Below are positions 4,321 through 20,835 of a stretch of DNA of 24,905 bases, piece by piece; position 1 is the first letter of the stretch; every line of letters starts with the position of its first letter. The DNA comes from a virus. A program made the position numbers and the translations under genes. The stretch is taken from the IMG/VR virus record IMGVR_UViG_3300042894_000335, positions 1-24,905 of that record. The stretch is one strand, 5' to 3'. The notes under the pieces are model-generated. The model had not been told where the DNA came from, ran no database searches, and saw nothing but the letters and a program-made list of their open reading frames with translations.

Positions 4321-4340
4321 AAAAATATAAAACTAAAATA

Positions 4341-4369
4341 GGGGTGGCAGTAATATATACTACCACCCC
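4341..4369 (-). terminator. Rho-independent terminator after gp32
   Basis: GGGGTGG (4341-4347) pairs with CCACCCC (4363-4369), and AGTA (4349-4352) pairs with TACT (4358-4361) around a 5-nt loop. The one C/A mismatch on the plus strand (4348/4362) is a G-U pair in minus-strand RNA, so the stem is complete only in the sense of gp32 transcription. A U-rich tail follows (complement of 4321-4340). It lies 17 bp past the gp32 stop, so gp32 may be expressed above uvsX, as in T4. Confidence 0.85.
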
Positions 4370-4385
4370 ATTACAAACAATTTAT

Positions 4386-5216: not shown

Positions 5217-5222
5217 AATTTT

Positions 5223-5299
5223 TTAATTAGTTAATTTAGTTAATTAGTTAATTAGATAACTCACACGAATTATTTAATGACAACCAATTAAGTTGTCAT
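5223..5299 (-). promoter_or_regulatory. gp32 leader: hairpin/pseudoknot plus tandem AU repeats, probable autogenous operator
   Basis: ATGACAAC (5277-5284) and GTTGTCAT (5292-5299) form a perfect 8-bp stem with a 7-nt loop. Between it and the gp32 ATG (5216) lie four tandem copies of TTAATTAG or TTAATTTAG at 5223-5255, reading CTAATTAA-type repeats in the mRNA. The loop UUAAUU is complementary to AAUUAA in the repeats, so a pseudoknot is possible. T4 gp32 represses its own translation by nucleating on a 5' pseudoknot and filling an unstructured AU-rich leader; the layout here matches that plan. The sequence is seen; the function is inferred. Confidence 0.6.
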
Positions 5300-5325
5300 C
5301 AATATATATGAAGACCAAAAAGATT

Positions 5326-8139: not shown

Positions 8140-8167
8140 CGTATATATAAATATTGATATATACACG
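8140..8167 (-). promoter_or_regulatory. Hairpin abutting the start of the 603-aa gene
   Basis: 8140-8149 pairs with 8158-8167 in a 10-bp stem with an 8-nt loop. The single A/C mismatch on the plus strand (8143/8164) becomes a U-G pair in minus-strand RNA. The stem ends one base before the ATG at 8138, so it covers the region a ribosome would need. Apart from CG ends it is AU-only, so its stability is modest. Confidence 0.45.
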
Positions 8168-8182
8168 AAAATCAAATTGTTT

Positions 8183-9535
8183 TTAAATATCTACCACCGT
8201 CATACTATCATAATTCTTACCAATATAACACTTTACAGGAAATTGATTGTTTGACATCAACCGTTTTAATTCCACCAATGTTTCTTTTTTATCATTCTTA
8301 TGACAATCAAACGAAACACTGTCATAAGTATACAAAATAGCCTTGGTTTGTTTACCATTCAAGTATTCATTGACTCTTACCAATGATTGCATTCCAAATT
8401 CAGTTTCACTAGCTTGCAAGATATAATTGAACAATTTGTTTGGATTTGGTTCATTTATATGGTTTGTAGTGATTCTTCTTTTATAAATTGGCGTTTCTAC
8501 ATATCCATTTTCACTAAAGAATTTCCATCTATGAGCAATATAATCACTCATTTTCTTAAAATATGGTATTTCCAATAATTCTTCGGGAATATTACCATAC
8601 ATACACTGGAATGTTAGGTTCTTTGACGCTTTGATTTCATCGTCCGATAACTTATCTTTACCATAGTATAACTTACCAAGATACTCATAAGCGTTTGAAG
8701 GAAGATTGTAATTGATTAACTTTGCAACTATGTGGGGGTGGTAGGCGCTATAATCAATCATAAACAACATACCATCATCACCATATCTGCTTATAAATGA
8801 TGATCTACAACCATTTTCTTTGTTCAATGCACTATAGTTAACGTTACCAAACCTATTACTGGGTCGTCCTGTTGCGGTATATAAGTTATATTGTGTATAA
8901 ACCATACCATCCCTATCTTTGATGGTTTTGTTCTCAAAATGCCTATTAAACAATTCTACATCCACTTTCAACCCATTGTGTTCAAGAATTCTAAGATTGT
9001 CTGTAATAGTGCTATTGATACTATGAAAACTGTCATCAATTTTGATGGATCTAAGTCTAATCAACACCGCATCATACATGTTTTCAAACTTTTCCAAATG
9101 TTTTACCATTGGAATTGCTTTATTCAATTCACCATACTTTTGAAATTTGGTTTTGATAACATTGTGTGCAGTTGTATCAAATTCACTATAATCTTCAACT
9201 TTACCGTCACTAATAAAGAAAATGATGTTAATATCAAACAGATTGTTTGTAGGAAATAGGTGTAAACACTTTTTCTTATCAAATACCCATTTCTTGCCTT
9301 TAAGTTTATTAAAGTCGTTGATTAGTGTGATTTTATTGATAAAGATATTACAATCTGGGTGTGTAAGATTGATAACATATGTAGTTTTAGATTTAAGCAT
9401 ATGAATCAAAACCATACACAATTCATCTACACAAGGATGTACTTTTTCATCTGATTGTATACATTCAAGAATAAAATCAGATGAATTATGCAATTCTAAA
9501 AATTTAGAATAAGATTGTTTGTCCAGACACACCAT
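8183..9535 (-). CDS. Short family A DNA polymerase (PolA-like)
   Basis: This is a template-directed DNA polymerase of the Pol I/T7 gp5 family. Counting from GTG 9541, motif A is IDYSAYHPHIV with D263. The O-helix K307, F311, Y315-G316 matches Pol I K758/F762/Y766. Motif C is YTYDSVSFDC with D407 kept, although the usual HDE is YDS. TATGRPSNRFGNVNY and LQASETEFGMQ correspond to the TGR and Q-helix motifs. At about 450 aa it is much shorter than Klenow (about 605) or T7 gp5 (704). The first 160 residues (FDKKKCLHLF, NLFDINI) look like a worn 3'-5' exonuclease domain without clear catalytic acids. I chose ATG 9535; GTG 9541 is the alternative. It sits between baseplate genes and unknown genes, with its own promoter-like sequence. 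Confidence 0.85.
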   Translation of the reverse strand: MVCLDKQSYSKFLELHNSSDFILECIQSDEKVHPCVDELCMVLIHMLKSKTTYVINLTHPDCNIFINKITLINDFNKLKGKKWVFDKKKCLHLFPTNNLFDINIIFFISDGKVEDYSEFDTTAHNVIKTKFQKYGELNKAIPMVKHLEKFENMYDAVLIRLRSIKIDDSFHSINSTITDNLRILEHNGLKVDVELFNRHFENKTIKDRDGMVYTQYNLYTATGRPSNRFGNVNYSALNKENGCRSSFISRYGDDGMLFMIDYSAYHPHIVAKLINYNLPSNAYEYLGKLYYGKDKLSDDEIKASKNLTFQCMYGNIPEELLEIPYFKKMSDYIAHRWKFFSENGYVETPIYKRRITTNHINEPNPNKLFNYILQASETEFGMQSLVRVNEYLNGKQTKAILYTYDSVSFDCHKNDKKETLVELKRLMSNNQFPVKCYIGKNYDSMTVVDI

Positions 9536-9556
9536 TGACACAATGTAACATTATAA

Positions 9557-9587
9557 CAAATGTAAGTCAATTATTTACCACCCCAAA
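9557..9587 (-). promoter_or_regulatory. Bacteroidota-type promoter upstream of the DNA polymerase
   Basis: On the minus strand TTTG (9587-9584), 19 bp, then TACATTTG (9564-9557) fits the known Bacteroidota consensus TTTG-N19-21-TAnnTTTG exactly. Transcription would start near 9552, about 15 nt before the polymerase ATG. A TGTTATAAT (extended -10-like) string overlaps just downstream (TATAAT at 9555-9550), but it has no properly spaced -35. The site occupies a 30-bp gap and the last codons of the preceding gene, where a chance match is unlikely. Confidence 0.6.
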
Positions 9588-20795: not shown

Positions 20796-20823
20796 TTGAC
20801 AAATTTTCAACTATTTGTATAAT
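20796..20823 (+). promoter_or_regulatory. Sigma70-type promoter on the plus strand (antisense to all genes)
   Basis: TTGACA (20796-20801), 16 bp, TATAAT (20818-20823): both boxes are perfect, in the 103-bp gap upstream of gp19. It points against every gene in the window. A start near 20830 would read into a hairpin at 20836-20850 and then the 3' end of the nucleotidyltransferase gene. A chance match in AT-rich DNA is possible. The TTG...TATAATTTG pattern is only an imperfect match to the Bacteroidota promoter. Confidence 0.5.
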
Positions 20824-20835
20824 TTGCTTATGCAT

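Follow-up and report, generated by a model that had tools for sequence, protein, structure and literature searches.

A sigma70-type promoter pattern conserved against the DNA polymerase start codon in a clade of large T4-like phages

Introduction

How is a phage DNA polymerase gene that sits next to tail genes transcribed? The locus that raises this question comes from IMG/VR record IMGVR_UViG_3300042894_000335, a virus contig of 24,905 bases with no named host on record, which we analysed at its full length and refer to as the window. It encodes on its minus strand a family-A DNA polymerase (Table 1), with tail-type genes upstream, including a baseplate-hub match (PHROGs), and with genes for SSB, UvsX, an exonuclease and a helicase downstream (Pfam, PHROGs). 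The PF00476 match is confined to the C-terminal polymerase part (profile 248-378), and this short 450-aa protein is perhaps a split enzyme. The named relatives of the polymerase are in Flavobacterium phage immuto (31%) and Microcystis phage Mel-JY01 (27%); elsewhere in its genome, immuto carries an additional family-A polymerase gene, a longer one. The gene preceding the polymerase has no family that we could find in Pfam or PHROG. From its stop codon to the polymerase ATG at 9535 there is a gap of 35 nt. The program-listed start of the polymerase ORF is a GTG at 9541, upstream of the transcription start that we predict. The original prediction assigned to this gap an exact promoter of the Bacteroidota type, TTTG-N19-TACATTTG.

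Table 1. Coordinates of the features around the polymerase start in the window.
Feature	Positions	Strand	Remarks
ATATTTAT, candidate late-promoter core	8147..8154	-	before next gene (start 8138)
Family-A DNA polymerase	8183..9535	-	450 aa counted from ATG; PF00476 E 3e-12
Polymerase start codon ATG	9533..9535	-	transcription predicted to start at its A (9535), 6 nt past the -10
-10 hexamer TACATT (extended -10)	9542..9547	-	TG one base upstream; TAnnnT in 110/110 examined loci
Spacer, 17 nt	9548..9564	-	letters not conserved; length 16 or 17
TTTG-N19-TACATTTG	9557..9587	-	letters present; full motif in 4/73 relatives; judged coincidental
-35 hexamer TTGACT	9565..9570	-	immediately 3' of the upstream gene's stop codon; TTGAC in 73/73 close relatives
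Upstream gene, 126 aa	9571..9951	-	C-terminus ...PLEFWGGK; from ORF list and translation

Polymerase loci

The upstream regions of related polymerases come from two scans. The first set has 73 regions, the window plus 72 of 80 loci; the loci left out (L030, L048, L053, L054, L062, L071, L076 and L079) begin within the polymerase gene or at its boundary. The query of the second scan was the alignment A1 of 13 polymerases, and the best 80 of its 518 relatives were taken, of which 43 lie on contigs already in the first set and 37 were added. The two sets together make 110 loci, in which we searched for TTGA[CT]N followed after 15-18 nt by TAnnnT and, 5-10 nt further on, by an ATG or GTG in frame.

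A conserved element before the polymerase gene

The 35-nt gap contains, on the minus strand at 9570-9533, TTGACT-N17-TACATT-N6-ATG, a sigma70-type promoter pattern, for which a TTGACA-like -35 and a TATAAT-like -10 at a spacing of 16-18 nt are expected. A plain sigma70 scan finds this element with 9/12 consensus letters, a spacer of 17 and a TG before the -10. The 300 bases around it include 2 sigma70-like sites where 2.1 are expected, and therefore one sequence alone would not reveal the promoter. In each of the 73 upstream regions of the first set, TTGAC lies 34-37 nt ahead of the ATG, and it is kept in nearly all the relatives of the second scan (the best 80 of 518), with protein identities of about 40% at the lowest. 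TTGAT replaces it in L148 and L149. The full arrangement TTGA[C/T]-N16/17-TAnnnT-N6-10-start codon is present in 110 of the 110 examined loci, the second-scan part of which comes from the best 80 of 518. Shuffling of the bases upstream leaves the element in 0.5 of the 110 loci on average and in 2 at most.

In 37 dereplicated upstream regions, the -35 is TTGAC in 36 cases and TTGAT in one, with an A as the sixth base in 24/37. The spacer is 17 nt in 27 regions and 16 nt in 10; lengths of 15 and 18 were allowed and never best. The -10 core is degenerate (third base T in 22/37, fourth base A in 14/37), and the T, A and final T of TAnnnT are imposed by the search pattern. The start codon of the polymerase is a GTG located 6-9 nt past the -10 in eight loci (L142-L146, L151, L162 and L163). 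In another four (L160, L161, L165 and L167), TTGAC is closer to the first in-frame ATG, so close that this codon would overlap the -10; a further start in the same frame restores the distance, at 7 nt. We also considered TATAAT at 9555-9550 as the -10, and rejected it: it is just 9 nt past TTGACT, it reads TATAGT in many near relatives, and it is missing there in distant ones. No TTGAC is found before the polymerase genes of immuto, Mel-JY01 and LR756508, and the element is therefore a feature of the clade.

The same element before other genes

The family includes relatives of 365 kb (G024), 174 kb (G023) and 119 kb (G025). At least one match to TTGACA-N16-17-TAnnnT-N6-9-ATG is present in 13 of 16 records, and compared to the reversed pattern the counts are 37 vs 0 in G024, 12 vs 1 in G023 and 7 vs 0 in G025. 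Taking as gene calls the longest ATG ORFs, which are not curated genes, and requiring at least 30 codons, the element precedes 67 starts in G024 with a mean of 6.85 (maximum 12) in the shuffles. The corresponding values are 20 vs 1.7 in G023, 11 vs 1.9 in G025, 6 vs 0.75 in G005 and 5 vs 0.6 in G004, and the signal is weak or absent in G011 (1 vs 0.4), G015 (1 vs 0.75) and immuto (2 vs 1.55). The counts of G002, G003, G004, G005 and G007 include a TTGAC-N18-TATCAT-N6-ATG before the 5'-3' exonuclease gene, which we do not take as independent evidence as it lies within the uvsX coding sequence. Intergenic matches to TTGAC-N15-18-TAnnnT (sense/antisense/shuffle) are 95/11/2.2 in G024 and 0/0/0.2 in immuto, and 35/11/1.1 in the ten contigs of the window clade, which are mutually related and whose counts are not independent. 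An unguided count has TTGACA as the most enriched hexamer upstream of the window-clade starts (25 vs 3.9). Genome-wide, the spacer peaks at 16-17 and the distance from the -10 to the ATG at exactly 6 nt.

As a control on named phages, we compared TTGAC-N17-18-TAnnnT-N6-8-ATG, forward plus reverse, to its reversed pattern. The family members give 57 vs 1 (G024), 18 vs 1 (G023) and 7 vs 1 (G025), Thermus phage phiYS40 gives 10 vs 1, and T4 gives 3 vs 0. There is no excess in P-SSM2 (3/3), phiKZ (3/4), SPO1 (0/1), Bacteroides phage crAss001 (1/1), RM378 (0/0), Chryseobacterium phage MA9V-3 (0/0), immuto (1/4), Mel-JY01 (1/2) or LR756508 (1/1).

We compared ten of the genes carrying the element to Pfam. 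Eight of them had a match there, two to DruA and one each to Mom, DNA ligase, NAD synthase, NAPRTase, a helicase and UvdE. None of these eight is a structural gene, and the two further genes matched nothing. In distant members, a leaderless-type element precedes orthologous-looking genes, one for a UvdE-like UV endonuclease in G001, G004, G005 and G016 and another for a small MxxSQLxSL protein in G024, G001 and G028. A search of a limited literature collection found no paper describing the promoters of the window clade.

Predicted transcription start

By the usual geometry, a -10 that ends 6 nt before an ATG makes the A of that codon the +1. The genome-wide peak at exactly 6 nt therefore predicts transcription to start at that A. 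The -10 of the window is so placed, and in the 37 dereplicated loci the distance to the start codon is 6 nt in 14, 7 in 10, 8 in eight, 9 in four and 10 in one; for the polymerase loci at 7-10 nt, a leader of 1-4 nt is therefore as likely as none. The 35-nt gap itself has just enough room for a -35/-10 promoter without a leader. The same argument from the distance between -10 and start is made in a survey of bacterial genomes (PMC3160421). The Shine-Dalgarno signal is at about the shuffle level in G024 (0.026 vs 0.034) and in most contigs, and above the shuffles in G025 (0.125 vs 0.037), G001 (0.070 vs 0.028) and G023 (0.072 vs 0.034).

In our judgement the gap quite probably holds a sigma70-type promoter set against the polymerase ATG, from which the gene is read early and alone into an mRNA that is leaderless or nearly so. 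Behind this proposal are the computed conservation, spacing, recurrence and mostly missing Shine-Dalgarno, and from them we infer the transcription start, the timing and the RNA polymerase involved. TTGACT-N17-(TGt)TACATT would direct transcription to start at the polymerase ATG or within a few bases of it. The host RNA polymerase with a sigma70-like factor would read the promoter early; among 13 records of family members or related phages, part of which are fragments, no gene scores over the cut-off for PF04542 (sigma70 region-2). The resulting mRNA would be translated without a Shine-Dalgarno sequence, and the polymerase would be transcribed independently of the late tail genes nearby. That the polymerase is expressed apart from the tail genes is the part of the original prediction that we keep, with an own, probably early promoter that is not the TTTG/TAnnTTTG element. 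The same promoter class would serve many non-structural genes throughout the clade.

Alternative explanations

We regard it as unlikely that the element is instead a middle-stage promoter at which a phage activator binds TTGAC. Conservation is much stronger in TTGAC than in the -10, which recognition by an additional protein would lead one to expect, and the element recurs before DNA-metabolism and NAD genes; the 16-17 spacing and the TTGACA consensus are, however, those of sigma70 promoters, and matches of the same spacing are found in phiYS40.

It is slightly more improbable that a Bacteroidota promoter occupies the conserved place, with the TTG of TTGAC as the -33 and with TACATTGT (9547-9540) as a -7 variant like TAnnTTTG or the SM5 motif of F. 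psychrophilum (TAnnTTGY). Although TACATTGT is an exact fit to SM5 as given in PMC9723704, and TAnnTTTG is found at the conserved -10 place in 3/73 upstream regions (L031, L032 and L082), bases 7 and 8 from TAnnnT are mixed, and base 5 is a T in only 11/37 dereplicated regions. What is kept is the whole TTGAC(A), beyond TTG, while a -33 motif is not evident in F. johnsoniae in the portions of the literature consulted. In intergenic stretches of the window clade SM5 is not clearly enriched (23 vs 17.4, with 9/100 shuffles reaching 23).

The promoter originally proposed, of the Bacteroidota sigma-ABfr type with TTTG (9587-9584), TACATTTG (9564-9557) and a short leader, is highly improbable. Its letters are indeed present on the minus strand, an exact match with an accepted spacing, and the leader to the ATG at 9535 would be about 17 nt. 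The placement in the gap is right for TACATTTG and wrong for TTTG, which is inside the upstream gene. There it belongs to the codons GAA-TTT-TGG (the Phe-Trp part) of the C-terminal PLEFW that the relatives keep. For the wider spacing TTTG-N17-23-TAnnTTTG, the window has 5 matches on both strands where 2.77 are expected, and 11/100 shuffles reach 5. For N19-21 there are three places. Two are on the plus strand within genes, which leaves 9587-9557 as the sole match lying beside a start on the coding strand. By our own arithmetic, the probability of a chance match at most 50 nt upstream of a start is about 0.06 (about 1.4 expected per strand, times about 5% of the sequence). Such a position alone is mildly suggestive; it is no longer so because the full motif is in only four of the 73 polymerase upstream regions (the window, L019, L027 and L081).

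The enrichment across genomes that this promoter type would have led one to expect is not seen: for TTTG-N19-21-TAnnTTTG in its TAHHTTTG form, the 22 family records have 30 matches vs 27 for the reversed pattern. With spacings of N18-22, the motif and its reversed control give 20 vs 14 in G024, slightly up, 5 vs 6 in G023 and 4 vs 3 in immuto. The TTG form in intergenic stretches of G024 gives 5 vs 1.1. The same N18-22 form gives 11 vs 0 in Bacteroides phage crAss001, and the test is therefore able to detect Bacteroidota promoters. Two observations remain on the side of a sigma-ABfr promoter, that Flavobacterium is the host of the named phage closest in its polymerase and that the Shine-Dalgarno signal is not clear, as in Bacteroidota; set against the TTGACA/TATAAT-like element that is actually conserved, they do not make the polymerase promoter one of the Bacteroidota type.

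Finally, it is scarcely credible that the stretch is an RNA element, for instance an operator through which the polymerase would regulate itself in the manner of T4 gene 43. Although it precedes the polymerase gene of a T4-like phage and abuts its start codon, the window has no unusual fold (z -0.18), the spacer letters are not kept, and the same element is ahead of many unrelated genes.

A different motif before the neighbouring genes

The starts of the tail genes neighbouring the polymerase carry ATATTTAT, unlike the polymerase with its TTGAC/TAnnnT element. On the minus strand of the window, ATATTTAT is located shortly before five gene starts (at 8147, 15772, 18198, 20183 and 20769), and the window has 10 matches in all with 6.13 expected. 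Before 337 window-clade starts, we find it 53 times vs 9.9 in shuffles, mostly 5-8 nt from the ATG. Enrichment is seen in immuto as well (15 vs 2.7), with spread distances. By analogy with T4, ATATTTAT is a candidate late promoter. At 5-8 nt from the ATG, a late promoter would imply that the late mRNAs are nearly leaderless too.

Other elements in the window

A full-consensus TTGACA-N16-TATAAT-N6-ATG is present on the plus strand at 20796-20832, in the gap between two tail-region genes. It points against the surrounding minus-strand genes, and the ORF after it has 4 codons. Similar TTGACA...TATAAT stretches are found in G002, G004, G008 and G019. This promoter possibly produces an antisense or small RNA.

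The minus strand has two more elements. In the gap between ssb and uvsX (4321-4385), a hairpin GGGGUGGUAGUA-UAUAU-UACUGCCACCCC is followed by a U-rich tail (-23.3 kcal/mol, z -4.48), and most family members have hairpins with altered letters at the same place; it is a candidate terminator or processing site. At 5217-5325, the gp32-like ssb gene has a long AU-rich leader with UUAACUAA-like repeats right before the ATG, repeats that are kept in kind across the family. T4 gene 32 has an autogenous operator, which this leader recalls.

The host

The original prediction took the motif as telling the host phylum; with the motif coincidental, that reading does not hold. Moreover immuto, a Flavobacterium phage, has no excess of the motif, and the motif test therefore bears on promoter type and not on host. 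A Bacteroidota host would still be compatible with the missing motif, because immuto has neither the TTGAC element nor a surplus of TTTG/TAnnTTTG.

The named relatives point two ways, to Flavobacterium, the host of immuto, and to Microcystis, from which Mel-JY01 is recorded. A genome scan for the host with the window polymerase gave no match, and the scan with the polymerase alignment gave three weak ones: a MAG of an unnamed phylum (36%), a fragment of a Flavobacteriaceae MAG (35%) and a fragment of an Aliivibrio MAG (33%). Upstream of the start codons, the frequency of A at -12/-13 is 0.72/0.67 in immuto, the one control phage here, and 0.38/0.43 in the window clade and 0.39/0.49 in G024. 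According to published reports, about 3.7% of 5' UTRs in B. thetaiotaomicron are shorter than 10 nt, 5.5% of the examined mRNAs of F. psychrophilum are leaderless (PMC9723704), and TA-led genes occur in 1/37 Bacteroidetes/Chlorobi genomes (PMC3160421). Bacteroidetes mRNAs being mostly leadered, a sigma70-type leaderless class would fit a Bacteroidota host poorly.

Discussion

Several known systems resemble this locus in part. In T4, early and middle promoters give replication genes that lie among other genes their own promoter, as we propose for the polymerase here. The mRNAs of T4 have leaders with Shine-Dalgarno sequences, a difference from the window clade, and its genome gives 3 vs 0 in the control pattern. 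Thermus phage phiYS40 is likewise a large phage with a promoter class abutting the start codon, and it gives 10 vs 1 in the same pattern search. Most of its middle and late mRNAs are without a leader, as stated in a review (PMC3594737). It belongs to another lineage, has a known thermophilic host with many leaderless genes, and its leaderlessness is reported from experiment whereas ours is predicted. Leaderless genes of Actinobacteria and Deinococcus-Thermus have a TANNNT -10 about 12 bp before the start, per PMC3160421 and PMC12340547, and the window clade has its TAnnnT at an equal distance. Unlike those bacterial genes, it also keeps a strong TTGAC(A) at 16-17 nt, and its genes are those of phages. 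The Bacteroidota sigma-ABfr motif TTTG/TAnnTTTG has its exact match nearby in the window, but it is neither conserved nor enriched.

A correction to the host inference follows for this contig, where the seeming Bacteroidota signal is a coincidence of coding sequence. For the family, a simple sequence rule marks the predicted leaderless class in 110 polymerase loci and in contigs of up to 365 kb. In the genomes of the clade it is an aid to start-codon assignment; their promoters are compact, and their start codons would double as transcription starts.

More tentatively, and at somewhat less than even confidence, we suggest that both early and late genes may be leaderless across an entire lineage of large T4-like phages from environmental metagenomes. 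If so, early genes would be expressed from TTGACA-N16/17-TAnnnT-N6-ATG and late genes from a core of ATATTTAT with the ATG about 5-8 nt further on. Few cases of leaderless expression as a main mode are known in phages, phiYS40 being one in the parts of the literature available. Either the phage would retune initiation in its host, as phiYS40 is reported to do, or the host would have ribosomes for which mRNA without a leader is a main route.
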